The notes under the pieces: generated by a model
Database searches by the model: none
The model's input: only the letters and a program-made list of their open reading frames with translations
What the model was told of the DNA's origin: nothing
Source of the DNA: an uncultured Pelagibacteraceae bacterium
GTDB lineage: Bacteria > Pseudomonadota > Alphaproteobacteria > Pelagibacterales > Pelagibacteraceae
Assembly: GCA_902620465.1 (NCBI GenBank)
Contig: CACNIF010000005.1
Span: forward strand, 30,656-94,655
DNA length: 64,000 nt
Direction of reading: 5' to 3'
Made by a program: the position numbers and the translations under genes
Shown here: piece after piece, positions 26,960 through 31,808 of the stretch
How positions within the stretch are numbered: position 1 is the first letter of the stretch
Layout: every line of letters starts with the position of its first letter

Positions 26960-27223
26960 ATGCTTTTTTATGTTTATCTTATAAAAACCATAAAAGGGTT
27001 TAAAAATAAATCTTATGTTGGATTTACAAATAATATAAAGAATAGATTAGCAAAACATAATGAAAATAAAGGGGCTAAAGCTACAAAAGGTTATAAGTGG
27101 GAATTGGTTTATAAAAAAAGATTCAAAAATAAATCATCAGCACTTTCATATGAGCATAAATTAAAGAAGGATAGACTTAAAAGAATATCGCTAATTGGTA
27201 TTTATGAAAAAAAAAAATATTAA
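26960..27223 (+). CDS. GIY-YIG domain protein (UPF0213 type)
   Basis: An 87-aa single-domain protein with YVYLIKT, SYVGFTNNIKNRLAKHN, GAKATKGYKWELVY and the C-terminal SALSYEHKLKKDRLKR containing the conserved Glu. This is the stand-alone GIY-YIG layout of bacterial UPF0213 proteins, presumed nucleases of unknown target. It begins 17 bases after the tRNA-Glu CCA and overlaps the next gene. Confidence 0.9.
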   Translation: MLFYVYLIKTIKGFKNKSYVGFTNNIKNRLAKHNENKGAKATKGYKWELVYKKRFKNKSSALSYEHKLKKDRLKRISLIGIYEKKKY

Positions 27224-29324
27224 AATAGCTACAATATTACCCTATAAAGAAAATTACACTTATACAAAAGCCTCCGCAGCTTCTTTATGGGTGAGTGAAT
27301 TCTTCAGAAAATCAAAATTTAAAACATCAAATTATATTTATGGACAGACAAAATATAAAGATTTTCTATCAAAAAATTATATTAATATTGACTTAAAGAA
27401 TATTAAATCAAAATTTAAAAGTGCCACTAAGGAATATTCAAAAAAACTAATTAAGAAATTTAAAAATCAAAAATTTGATTTAATTGAAATACATAATAGG
27501 CCCCTCATTTTAAAAGAAATAGCTAAAAAAATTAATTCTAGATTCATGATCTATTTTCATAACGACCCATTATCAATGAAAGGATCAAAAACTGTCAAAG
27601 AAAGACTCAATATAATTTCTAATGTTGAAAAGATTATTTTTGTTAGTGAATGGACACAAAAAAGATTTTTTATAGATTTAGACAATAAACTAAAAACTAA
27701 ATCTGAAATTGTTTATCCCAGCATAAATCCAAAAAAAAAATTGATGATTAAAAAAAAATATATCACATTTGTAGGAAAACTTAATGAGTCAAAAGGTTAT
27801 GACTTATTTTCAAAATCTATTATAAAAATATTGAATGAGTTTCCTGAATGGAAAGCTTTTTCTCTAGGTGATGAAGATAGAAGAAAAATATTTATAAAGC
27901 ATCGTAACCATATTGAACTAGGTTTTATAAAACATACAAAAGTTCTAAGTTTGTTAGACAAATCTTCAATTTCTGTTGTGCCATCTAAGTGGGATGAACC
28001 TTTTGGTAGAACAGCTTTAGAAGCAACCTCAAGAGGATGTGCAACTATAATTTCTAATAAAGGAGGATTACCTGAAACTACAAAGCAAGCAATTATACTA
28101 AAAAATCTCGATGCTAATAATCTTTATAAACAAATAAAATTTTTAATAAAAAATAAAAAAAAAAGAAAAACAATTCAAAAAGATTCATTTTCTAAGGTTG
28201 AGCATATTATTTCTGAAAATACAAAACTTATTGATAAAATTAGACAGGAATGTCTACCATATAATAATTTTAATTTTATAAAAAACAAATTAAAAATACT
28301 TAACATTTATAATCAAGGTCAAAAATTAGATCATAGACTTTATAATATATCTTTAGGAAAAAAATTTACGAATGGATTTATAAGAAATGGTCATGATGTA
28401 CTCGAGATTAGTGATAGGGACTATATAAAGAATAACAGAACATTTTCTTTTACTCCTGTAAAAGACTCTTTTCAGAAATATCTAATTGAATCTTTTAAAA
28501 ATTATAATCCAGATCTTCTATTTTTTGGTCACACTAAGAATATTGATAGAGAAACTATAGATACGCTTAAATCATTAAATAAAAATTTAATTATTTCGCA
28601 ATGGAATGAGGATCCTATAATGCCAAGTTTAAATTATTCAAAAAATAATATTAATAATATTCAAAAATATTCAAAATTAGTTGATCATAATTTTATAACT
28701 ACTAACCCGAGTGAATTAAAAAAACAGAATATAAATATTGGTAATTTTCATTTTTTCTTTGTCCCAGTTGATAAGAATATAGAATTTTTTGATGTATATA
28801 AGCTGAGGCCACAAAAAGATCTTTTTTACGCTATGAGTCATGGAGTAAATAGAGCGACGTTAAAAGAGGGGATTGAAGATGATCGCATTATTTTTTTAAA
28901 TAATTTAGTAAAAAAGATACCTAACATTAAATATGACTTTTATGGTTTTGCGAACAAACAGCCAATTTGGGGGAATAATTTTTTTCATTCACTAATTAAC
29001 TCCAAAATGGGTCTAAATCTTAGTAGGGGGAAGCCAACCAAATATTACTCCAGCAATAGAATAGCATCAATTATGGGTAATGGTTTACTGACTTTTATTG
29101 ATAAAAAAGTACAAATGGATCATTTTTTTAATACTAGGGAGATAGTTTTTTATAATAACATCAATGATCTAGCTGATAAAATAAATTTCTATTCAAAAAA
29201 TGACAAGCTTCGAAAAAAAATTGCAATGAATGGTCAAAAAAAATATTTTAAATTATTTAATGAAAAACGTATTACCGAATATTTTGTAAATATTTCTGTA
29301 GGTAAAAACTATAAATTATTTTAA
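27204..29324 (+). CDS. Two-domain glycosyltransferase (tandem GT4-like)
   Basis: About 706 aa from the ATG at 27204; the ORF-track start at 27195 is a TTG and is less likely. The first half (to about 355) is a GT4-type transferase with the donor-binding VVPSKWDEPFGRTALEATSRG and GGLPETT blocks. The second half is another GT-B-like domain of the DUF3880/Glyco_trans_1_2 kind (FGHTKNIDRET, SQWNEDPIMPS, GLNLSRGKPTKYYSSNRI, NGLLTFIDK). Such fusions build surface polysaccharide or glycolipid; donor and acceptor are unknown. It lies with an unrecognised gene between tRNA-Glu and an integrase. Confidence 0.85.
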   Translation: MKKKNIKIATILPYKENYTYTKASAASLWVSEFFRKSKFKTSNYIYGQTKYKDFLSKNYINIDLKNIKSKFKSATKEYSKKLIKKFKNQKFDLIEIHNRPLILKEIAKKINSRFMIYFHNDPLSMKGSKTVKERLNIISNVEKIIFVSEWTQKRFFIDLDNKLKTKSEIVYPSINPKKKLMIKKKYITFVGKLNESKGYDLFSKSIIKILNEFPEWKAFSLGDEDRRKIFIKHRNHIELGFIKHTKVLSLLDKSSISVVPSKWDEPFGRTALEATSRGCATIISNKGGLPETTKQAIILKNLDANNLYKQIKFLIKNKKKRKTIQKDSFSKVEHIISENTKLIDKIRQECLPYNNFNFIKNKLKILNIYNQGQKLDHRLYNISLGKKFTNGFIRNGHDVLEISDRDYIKNNRTFSFTPVKDSFQKYLIESFKNYNPDLLFFGHTKNIDRETIDTLKSLNKNLIISQWNEDPIMPSLNYSKNNINNIQKYSKLVDHNFITTNPSELKKQNINIGNFHFFFVPVDKNIEFFDVYKLRPQKDLFYAMSHGVNRATLKEGIEDDRIIFLNNLVKKIPNIKYDFYGFANKQPIWGNNFFHSLINSKMGLNLSRGKPTKYYSSNRIASIMGNGLLTFIDKKVQMDHFFNTREIVFYNNINDLADKINFYSKNDKLRKKIAMNGQKKYFKLFNEKRITEYFVNISVGKNYKLF

Positions 29325-29329
29325 CAAAG

Positions 29330-30046
29330 ATGAAAATACTTGTATACACTCATAGCGATTATTCTTGGGTATGGAAATATTGGCATCAACAAACTGATAA
29401 ATTTTTACAAAATTTCGATAAGATTTGTATATTAAATTCAGACTCATCATTTAGAGAAGATTATATTGAAATCAAATATAATGACGAACTAACCTATAAA
29501 AATAGAGTTCTTTCCTGTTTAAATGATATAGATGATGACGAAATTGTACTTTTTTGTCATGAAGATATGTTTTTATATAAGAAACCTAATTTTGAAATAA
29601 TTGATGAATATATAAATTTAATTAAAAATGATAATTGCGAACTAATTAAATTAATAAGAGCCTTTGAAAATTTAGATAAGTCAAATTTACACGAAAAGTT
29701 ATTTAAAAATCCTGATAAACAATTATTTTCAATCCAGCCAACAATTATCAAAGTTAAAAATCTTAAACATATCTATAATAATGTTCCAGGTGATAATATA
29801 TGGGAATTTGAAGCTAATACTTCAAAAAAATATCTTAAAGATATAATTTCACTTTGTTCATTTGATTTAAATAAAGATAAAAAAAGAGGGAAATTTCATT
29901 ATGATAGTTCTGTATATCCCTATATTTGTACTGCTGTAATTAAAGGAAAATGGAATTTTAATGAATATAAAAAAGAACTATTTGAAATTTTTTATAATAG
30001 AAAATTTAATGTTTTTTCTTATTATTTGTCAAAAATTAAATTTTAA
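29330..30046 (+). CDS. Hypothetical protein, possible glycan-related
   Basis: A 238-aa soluble protein I do not recognise. It starts KILVYTHSDYSWVWKYWHQQ and contains IDDDEIVLFCHEDMFLYKKP, a pattern like the DxD-containing strand of a GT-A transferase, and the late block KRGKFHYDSSVYPYICTAVIKGKWN. It starts 5 bases after the two-domain glycosyltransferase, so a role in the same glycan is a reasonable inference from position only. It is convergent with the integrase, with an 11-base overlap. Confidence 0.7.
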   Translation: MKILVYTHSDYSWVWKYWHQQTDKFLQNFDKICILNSDSSFREDYIEIKYNDELTYKNRVLSCLNDIDDDEIVLFCHEDMFLYKKPNFEIIDEYINLIKNDNCELIKLIRAFENLDKSNLHEKLFKNPDKQLFSIQPTIIKVKNLKHIYNNVPGDNIWEFEANTSKKYLKDIISLCSFDLNKDKKRGKFHYDSSVYPYICTAVIKGKWNFNEYKKELFEIFYNRKFNVFSYYLSKIKF

Positions 30047-30989
30047 TTTTATTTAATGCATTATTTTTAAATATATTTGCTTCTCTGATATATCTTCTAA
30101 CCATTTGTGTTGTTTTATGACCTGTCATAGCCATTATGCTTCGCTCATCAGCGCCTGAATCAGCAGCTACTGTTGCAAAACCCGATCTTAAACTATGACC
30201 TGCATAATTTTTGTTTTCGATGCCTGCTATCTTTAAATACTCTTTCATTAATAAAACTACAGATTGGTCAGTTAATCTTTTGTTTGTTAGAGATAAACCC
30301 TTAGAAAATCTTCTAAAAATAGGTCCAGACTTAATTTTAGAAATTTCTAACCATTTTTTTAGATTTGTAACGGGACAATAAATTTCACTATCGAAGTAGG
30401 GTAGTCCTTTGATCATTCCTTCACCAAATTGATCTGTTTTTGATCTTTTAATGGTGATTTTAACACCCTCAGGTACAAATTCTAAGTCTTCATGATCGAT
30501 TGAAATAAGTTCATTTCGTCTAAATCCACCTCCAAAGCCAATTAAGATTATTGACTTGTCTCTAAATTTCTTAATAGCATCAATTTTTTGTTCATCTATT
30601 ACATTAATTATAGATTTTAAATGACTGATTAATATAGGTTTTTTACCTTTTTGAATACTTCCTTTCACCCTTTTTATTCCCATTAAGTTTTCAACAATGA
30701 TTGGATGTTTGGTGTCTAAATAATGCCCTTTTAGTTTATGCACCATGCTAATTGACACTAAACGTCTCCTTAAAGTGCTTATTTTTGAATTTTTAGAAAG
30801 GTGTGTAAGGTATAATGAAACTATTTTTGGCTCTGATGGCAAAGAGTTCAAACTATGCTTGGCACAAAATGCTCCAAAATCTTTAAAGTCTGACTTATAT
30901 GCTCTTAAGGTATTATTTGCTTTTGAGCTTTTGAGGTTATTTAAAGTTGCCTCATGAAGCGATTTTAGGTCTGTTGTCAGTTCATTCAT
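30036..30989 (-). CDS. Tyrosine recombinase / phage-type integrase
   Basis: A 317-aa recombinase with an N-terminal SAM-like core-binding domain (about 15-100) and a catalytic domain with the full residue set: Arg157/158 in GGGFRRNELIS, Lys184 in KRSKTD, His265-x-x-Arg268 in HSLRSGFAT, His291 in MTGHKTTQ and the nucleophile Tyr300 in VRRYIREA. It should cut and rejoin DNA at a specific site. It is not an obvious XerC/XerD by context, and no phage structural genes are nearby. A 19-bp inverted repeat lies 12 bases upstream of the start. Confidence 0.93.
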   Translation of the reverse strand: MNELTTDLKSLHEATLNNLKSSKANNTLRAYKSDFKDFGAFCAKHSLNSLPSEPKIVSLYLTHLSKNSKISTLRRRLVSISMVHKLKGHYLDTKHPIIVENLMGIKRVKGSIQKGKKPILISHLKSIINVIDEQKIDAIKKFRDKSIILIGFGGGFRRNELISIDHEDLEFVPEGVKITIKRSKTDQFGEGMIKGLPYFDSEIYCPVTNLKKWLEISKIKSGPIFRRFSKGLSLTNKRLTDQSVVLLMKEYLKIAGIENKNYAGHSLRSGFATVAADSGADERSIMAMTGHKTTQMVRRYIREANIFKNNALNKIKI

Positions 30990-31000
30990 ACAATTACTAT

Positions 31001-31019
31001 TGATAACAATTAATTATCA
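31001..31019. repeat. Inverted repeat upstream of integrase, TGATAA-N7-TTATCA
   Basis: TGATAACAATTAATTATCA is a near-perfect dyad centred 21 bases upstream of the integrase start codon, a position suiting an operator or a recombinase binding site. Its left part TGATAACAATT recurs exactly 300 bases away at 31301, inside the promoter of the structured RNA. Confidence 0.45.
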
Positions 31020-31070
31020 TTAGTAATATATCAAGTGATTTTTAATGTCAATAGTTTAAATTAAAAATAT

Positions 31071-31244
31071 ATGGGTTCAATTGATGGAGAAATTCCTGCG
31101 GTATGGTTTTTAATAAGTTCGATTGGATTTATTATTTTAAGTGTTATTCAGTATAAAAATACTGGTAAAAGTATAAATACAATATTTCTTTCAAGTATGG
31201 CGATTATATTCTTTGCAAGTTACCTAATATTGCTAACAAAATAG
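31071..31244 (+). CDS. Small membrane protein, 57 aa
   Basis: Too short for the ORF track. The frame starts MGSIDGEIPAVWFLISSIGF and has two hydrophobic segments (about residues 11-28 and 40-55) separated by a short polar turn (QYKNTGKS), i.e. a small hairpin membrane protein. It sits alone between the divergent integrase and the structured RNA. No family is recognised. The polar turn and clean start make it more credible than a chance T-rich frame. Confidence 0.5.
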   Translation: MGSIDGEIPAVWFLISSIGFIILSVIQYKNTGKSINTIFLSSMAIIFFASYLILLTK

Positions 31245-31302
31245 AGGTTATCCCCGAAATTCACAGAAAAATCATTTAATTATAAAAAACAACTATTTAG
31301 TG

Positions 31303-31332
31303 ATAACAATTTAAATTTCAGTCTGGTATAGT
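31303..31332 (+). promoter_or_regulatory. Extended -10 promoter of the structured RNA
   Basis: TGG-TATAGT at 31324-31332 is an extended -10 element; ATAACA lies 18 bases upstream as a 4/6 match to the -35 consensus. Predicted start is about 31338-31340, right before the first RNA hairpin. The -35 overlaps one copy of the TGATAACAATT repeat. Confidence 0.55.
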
Positions 31333-31338
31333 GAATTT

Positions 31339-31525
31339 AACTTAAGAGGCAACTCTTAACTGGCCAGCCAGAGAAAGGCCGAGAGGTTTAAGTCTGGAGG
31401 GCAGAAAGCCCTGTAAAGCAGCGCTTAACATACAGGGTGGTCGGTTCGGCGGTAGCGCATAAAACGACGAGCCATAAACTTCTGATCTTTGCACTGTAAA
31501 AAGTGTAAAGTATCAGGGTTTTTTT
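31339..31525 (+). ncRNA. Unclassified structured RNA (sRNA or leader of ogt)
   Basis: A GC-richer 187-nt island in A+T-rich DNA with no ORF. Helices seen directly: TTAAGAG-GCAA-CTCTTAA (31342-31359, GNRA tetraloop); CCAGA/TCTGG (31368-31372 with 31393-31397); AGGGC-AGAAA-GCCCT (31398-31412) or, instead, GCCCTGTA/TACAGGGT (31408-31415 with 31431-31438) enclosing AAGC/GCTT; GGTTCG/CGAGCC (31443-31448 with 31468-31473) enclosing GCG-GTAG-CGC; then a terminator. GCGCT (31421-31425) could also pair AGCGC (31454-31458). It has its own promoter. I compared it by eye with RNase P, tmRNA, SRP RNA, 6S and common riboswitches and found no match. The ogt start codon follows 4 bases after the terminator. 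Confidence 0.75.
31482..31525 (+). terminator. Strong rho-independent terminator
   Basis: CTGATCTTTGCACT pairs with AGTGTAAAG-T-ATCAG: 14 base pairs (one G-T) with a single bulged T and a GTAAAA loop, followed by GGG and seven T residues. It ends 4 bases before the ogt ATG. Confidence 0.88.
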
Positions 31526-31529
31526 CTTT

Positions 31530-31808
31530 ATGAAACCCCTACTTGGTACAAAATTTCAATTAAAGGTTTGGAAATATCTTATTTCTATACCAAAAGGTAG
31601 TGTAAAAACATACAAACAAGTAGCAATTGCCATTAAAAGCCCTAAATCAGCCCGTGCAGTTGCAAATGCCTGTGCTAAAAACCCTTATGCCCCAAAAATA
31701 CCTTGTCATAGAGTGATTAGGTCGGATGGAGGTCTTGGTGGCTATTCTGGAAAAGGTGGAGTAAGGCAAAAGCTCAAATTACTTAGATCTGAAAAAGTAT
31801 CTATTTAA
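31530..31808 (+). CDS. ogt: Minimal O6-alkylguanine-DNA alkyltransferase
   Basis: A 92-aa protein that is only the C-terminal DNA-binding/active-site domain of Ogt/MGMT: FQLKVWKYLISIPKGSVKTYKQVA, the Arg-finger region SARAVANACAKNP and the active-site PCHRVI with acceptor Cys59, then GGLGGYSGG-like residues. The N-terminal domain is missing altogether, as in alkyltransferase-like proteins, but unlike those the reactive Cys is kept, so suicide repair of O6-alkylguanine is possible. The gene begins 4 bases after an intrinsic terminator, implying read-through, anti-termination or an internal promoter. Confidence 0.9.
   Translation: MKPLLGTKFQLKVWKYLISIPKGSVKTYKQVAIAIKSPKSARAVANACAKNPYAPKIPCHRVIRSDGGLGGYSGKGGVRQKLKLLRSEKVSI

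Follow-up and report, generated by a model that had tools for sequence, protein, structure and literature searches.

The segment at positions 31339 to 31525 (+) of the window, that is, the whole 64,000-nucleotide stretch of Pelagibacteraceae DNA analyzed here, is almost certainly a member of the IMES-2 RNA family, and comparisons across relatives make it very probable that IMES-2 is a free-standing, single-copy RNA gene that occurs in one SAR11 family and carries a promoter region and terminator of its own. The family is already catalogued and is confined to SAR11 ocean bacteria, which are among the most numerous bacterial groups of the ocean and for which few regulatory factors are known. Measured against the Rfam model alone, the useful additions made here are the free-standing nature of the gene, a kissing helix and a set of upstream motifs; together, the kissing fold and the free-standing gene narrow what IMES-2 can do.

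Family identity and fold of the RNA

A covariance search against Rfam matched positions 31335 to 31475 (+) to IMES-2 (RF02035) with 148.5 bits and E = 1e-38, compared to a gathering score of 54.7 for this family, and the match covered model positions 1 to 141 of 141. IMES-2 was the sole Rfam match for the segment at gathering threshold, and the matches added by a relaxed search of the window all fell below their own thresholds. The original prediction, made from the sequence, described a structured RNA equipped with a promoter and a terminator of its own, found no match for it among RNase P, tmRNA, SRP, 6S RNA or the known riboswitches, and allowed that it might be a catalogued SAR11-specific RNA; an Rfam search and covariation in relatives were proposed as checks. 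Each of these points held: the Rfam match is above threshold over the full model length and belongs to a SAR11 family, no tRNA or other known class was returned at gathering threshold, homologues keep promoter region, RNA and terminator, and the covariation described below is present. The original description of IMES-2 by Weinberg et al. (2009) reportedly included metatranscriptome reads. The window RNA shares all helices of the Rfam model, whose version stops before the terminator and has no kissing helix; the unit runs past the Rfam end through a 14-bp terminator to approximately 31525. The transcript would thus span 31339 to 31525 (+), the 5' end being placed from the -10 element and the 3' end from the T tract.

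The predicted fold of the segment had an energy of -73.1 kcal/mol, compared to -48.5 ± 4.2 kcal/mol for 200 dinucleotide shuffles, none of which was as low (z = -5.8), while its reverse strand folded less stably (z = -2.8). As the prediction had stated, the segment is richer in GC than its surroundings (approximately 0.41 to 0.46 versus 0.20 to 0.35 in most adjoining windows) and holds no credible open reading frame (ORF), the sole ORF of at least 50 aa being a 50-aa frame on the reverse strand. The predicted four or more helices with a GNRA-capped hairpin were likewise recovered, all on the forward strand: P1 (31342 to 31359) with a GCAA tetraloop, P2/P2a (31360 to 31404) with a GAGA tetraloop, P3 (31408 to 31438) and P4 (31443 to 31473). 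In addition, GCGCUU in the loop of P3 (31421 to 31426, +) and UAGCGC in the loop of P4 (31453 to 31458, +) form the 5' and 3' halves, respectively, of a predicted kissing helix.

These helices were evaluated in 43 dissimilar sequences, using an alignment built without structure, in which related rows are not independent of one another. When the Rfam helices and the kissing helix were taken together, 94.6% of cells were standard pairs and 32 of the 45 pairs were changed on both sides; compensatory changes in relatives thus keep the pairing of the IMES-2 consensus helices. Among the individual helices, pairs changed on both sides numbered 4 of 7 in P1, where 100% of cells were paired, 12 of 15 in P2/P2a and 8 of 8 in P3. 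The covariation score was 0.441, compared to 0.199 for shuffled alignments, with 0 of 500 shuffles reaching the observed value and slid versions of the structure all scoring about 0.1 or less. RNAalifold, which is blind to pseudoknots, recovered nearly identical nested helices.

The kissing helix between loops L3 and L4 covaries across lineages. It was 95.7% paired, with three of its six pairs changed on both sides, its pairs having been picked by eye after the sequences were viewed. L3/L4 reads GCGCU/AGCGC in most sequences, GCACU/AGUGC in four (L254, L266, L267 and L268), GUGCU/AGCAC in L259 and GUACU/AGUAC in L263, and these changes are spread over several genera. The helix lies outside the nested structure line of the Rfam model, since covariance models cannot hold pseudoknots. 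A homodimer joined at the palindromic loop UAGCGCUA was also considered and dropped: in relatives whose L3 reads GCACU or GUGCU, the palindrome is lost yet the pairing with L4 is kept.

Distribution, genomic settings and transcription signals

The window's genome carries one IMES-2 copy. Of 397 Pelagibacterales genomes, 200 have the RNA, as one copy each; they belong to 6 of 13 genera, all from a single family. The RNA was present in 20 of the 37 genomes of the window's genus and in none of 24 genomes of a sister family. Because many genomes are incomplete assemblies, these counts are lower bounds. Absence is nevertheless genuine in some genomes, since the RNA was not found in the single-contig genomes G012, G062, G063, G066, G067 and G070, and because about half of the near-complete genomes lack it (it was present in 75 of 151 genomes at least 90% complete), the order can do without IMES-2. 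When GTDB contigs were scanned by pattern, at least 80 loci were returned; among the matches listed, all were labeled Pelagibacteraceae or, in one case, Pelagibacterales, except for four chance matches in unrelated genomes (L113, L117, L161 and L168), where the pattern occurs and the RNA's other parts are missing. A phage origin was rejected, as no similar phage record was found, and two pattern matches on viral contigs were GC-rich chance matches that lack the RNA.

In the window, the RNA sits between a 57-aa membrane-like ORF (31071 to 31244, +) and a gene for a one-domain O6-methylguanine-DNA methyltransferase (MGMT; 31530 to 31808, +) with the PCHRV motif. The gene order in the window's genus is recombinase, one or more small ORFs, IMES-2, MGMT and an EamA transporter. 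In a second setting, IMES-2 lies directly behind mnmA, in at least eight loci among the matches listed, with a convergent ORF or other genes on the far side within the stretch seen; a genome search placed the mnmA setting with a convergent ORF in genera g8, g9 and g12. Genera g5 and g11 hold two further settings. Every setting combines the same three parts: upstream DNA in which the motifs recur, the RNA itself and a terminator hairpin. That IMES-2 is found at unrelated loci, and has a promoter region and terminator of its own at each of them, is the chief reason to regard it as a free-standing RNA gene, and speaks strongly against both an MGMT leader and a component of the recombinase system.

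The prediction had placed the RNA in an accessory zone. This is apt insofar as about half of the order's genomes carry the RNA and variable genes adjoin it; it does not describe the window's genus, where the RNA's position at the GC-skew switch is fixed and syntenic. The spacer that separates MGMT from a dif-like site described below (31027 to 31529 and its equivalents) varies in cargo between genomes: it may hold IMES-2, an acetyltransferase-like ORF, a membrane-like ORF of 57 or 157 aa, or next to nothing; the 57-aa ORF is present in some relatives and replaced or missing in others.

An extended -10 promoter had been part of the prediction, and TGGTATAGT at 31324 to 31332 (+) fits it, with a TGnTAnnnT-like element at the same place in relatives. 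The window's match (9 of 12 positions, with TG) occurs, taken alone, at a rate no higher than chance. Further upstream, a conserved element, CAAC-N6-GTGATA (31290 to 31305, +), is found in all groups of settings and is a putative factor-binding site. A DnaA-box-like pair, TTATCCCCG and AAATTCACA (31248 to 31265, +), is degenerate in the window, with approximately two mismatches each, and most relatives have an upstream 9-mer matching TTATNCACA with zero or one mismatch. Of 106 homologues, 96 had a 9-mer with at most one mismatch to TTATNCACA in the upstream DNA, within approximately 125 nt of the RNA, compared to about 14% of mononucleotide shuffles; the window's 64 kb contains 51 such 9-mers per strand, a background of about 0.1 per 125 nt. 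TTATNCACA is the E. coli DnaA-box consensus; DnaA binding here is putative, and might tie transcription of the RNA to the replication cycle. Upstream motifs, one of them DnaA-box-like, are common to all IMES-2 settings.

The predicted 14-bp intrinsic terminator with seven Ts is likewise present (31476 to 31525, +; z = -5.8 for the terminator alone), its stem interrupted by one bulge, which is presumably why a simple terminator scan overlooked it. At other loci, different hairpins replace the window's terminator, and the terminator sequence varies.

Possible modes of action

Overall, we consider it probable that IMES-2 is a free-standing, trans-acting RNA gene, most likely a protein-binding one. 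The RNA would be transcribed as its own unit from its own promoter region to its intrinsic terminator, its helices and kissing helix would hold a compact fold, and through this fold it would act in trans, most likely on a protein that it binds and occupies; this is favored over a cis effect on MGMT and over Hfq-aided pairing with messages. That it works by binding a protein is, taken by itself, a tentative proposal. A single copy, strong structure and the expenditure of the best conserved loop bases on the RNA's own fold are features that fit protein binding better than message pairing.

An RNA that regulates messages by base pairing, independently of Hfq, is unlikely. Several conserved unpaired stretches would suit such a role, among them the 3' side of L4 and an AGAAA lying between P2 and P3, whereas the loop bases with the best conservation serve the RNA's own fold, in the kissing helix and the GNRA loops. 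No Hfq (PF17209) was found in 16 SAR11 genomes by a search that detected its control, so that the host factor required by Hfq-dependent small RNAs was missing from these genomes, an absence with which message pairing is still compatible. In a broader picture, which strikes us as improbable, DnaA would control IMES-2 and link it to replication, and the RNA, held in shape by its kissing helix, would regulate SAR11 cells globally in a role that belongs to 6S or Hfq-dependent RNAs in other bacteria.

Even less probable is that IMES-2 works in the manner of 6S RNA, sequestering RNA polymerase in its place. IMES-2 is like 6S RNA (RF00013) in being a free-standing structured RNA of similar length, and no 6S match was found at gathering threshold in the window or in 38 Pelagibacterales genomes, while the control was detected in 5 of 14 named genomes, Caulobacter included; 6S RNA is either absent from the 38 genomes or too diverged to match. 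Against this reading, 6S RNA is a long double-stranded rod that opens into a bubble at its center, whereas IMES-2 consists of separate hairpins joined by a kissing helix, and half of the genomes lack IMES-2. IMES-1 (RF02034), named in the same marine series, gave no match in the 38 genomes in a search that had no positive anywhere to validate it. The candidate structured RNAs described for "Ca. Pelagibacter ubique" are SAR11 specific and intergenic, and the fourth of the weaker candidates was also thought to be separately transcribed (PMC2704228); compared by description only, the genes beside those four motifs differ from the neighbors of IMES-2.

A cis-acting leader of the downstream MGMT gene, an attenuator or riboswitch with the terminator as its switch, is very improbable, and the sequence comparisons have largely refuted it already. 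It would account for the closeness of the terminator to MGMT, which in almost every copy from the window's genus starts just a few bases downstream. A riboswitch or attenuator, however, keeps a constant position upstream of the gene it regulates, and the neighbors of IMES-2 differ between genera, with a convergent next gene in g8, g9 and g12 and other neighbors in g5 and g11. Moreover, a small ORF separates the RNA from MGMT in one copy (L006), MGMT stays in place in genomes that lack the RNA, and no conserved antiterminator was seen.

Hardly credible is that IMES-2 belongs to the recombinase system as a guide RNA or terminus-specific element: it does adjoin the recombinase at the GC-skew switch in window-genus copies with enough flank, but it lies far from it in other genera, and six genomes of the window's genus lack the RNA with recombinase, dif-like palindrome and MGMT still in place (EamA was seen in five of the six, the stretch of G024 ending just past MGMT). 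A terminus-bound RNA is refuted by G061, where IMES-2 is at 303 kb and the recombinase and skew switch are near 774 kb.

The neighboring recombinase and its dif-like site

The gene upstream of the spacer, which is not part of the RNA gene, encodes a Xer-like tyrosine recombinase (30036 to 30989, -). The protein belongs to the Phage_integrase family, scores far below the XerC and XerD cut-offs and has the catalytic motifs GFRRNEL, HSLR, GH and Y. It is usually the sole protein of its kind in genomes of the family, which thus have a recombinase with catalytic motifs and no XerC/XerD pair; extra or partial matches occur in G000, G028, G061, G063, G070 and G328, and four sister-family genomes have two such recombinases each.

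Upstream of the recombinase start lies a dif-like 33-bp palindrome, TTACTATTGATAA-CAATTAA-TTATCATTAGTAA (30994 to 31026). Where the recombinases are just 61 to 66% identical, the palindrome is TTCCGATAA-CCATTAA-TTATCGGAA instead, so that the arms change with the recombinase type (two types; L069, L299 and others). The one exception to a dif-like palindrome at the GC-skew switch is L295 (G064), where the stretch retrieved did not show the core pattern that the other g5 genomes checked have. Cumulative GC skew of the window peaks at 31766. In the single-contig genome G012, sampled over 400 kb, the skew peak near 616 kb coincides with the recombinase position; for G061, the sign change of the sampled skew falls in the interval from 760 to 800 kb, which contains the recombinase (774 kb). 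Among 21 genomes, mostly represented by 20-kb stretches, the peak was at most 2 kb from the gene start in 13; in the others it was further away, often at the stretch's edge.

The recombinase and palindrome are candidates for a Xer/dif system with a single recombinase in this SAR11 family, with putative roles of the dif-like site in dimer resolution and FtsK control. A 2009 survey listed Pelagibacter ubique as lacking a dif/Xer system, together with Legionellales (PMC2731167); subsequent work showed that Legionellales rely on XerL, a single recombinase that has diverged (PMC9765430). A literature search of partial coverage returned no report of a SAR11 Xer/dif locus, and this apparently overlooked locus may be more surprising than IMES-2 itself. 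With it, the question of how chromosome dimers are resolved in bacteria listed as lacking dif/Xer can be put to the test. On the tRNA-Glu side of the recombinase, the genes differ among relatives; the window has there, between tRNA-Glu and the recombinase (26960 to 30046), a GIY-YIG ORF, a two-domain glycosyltransferase and a 238-aa ORF.
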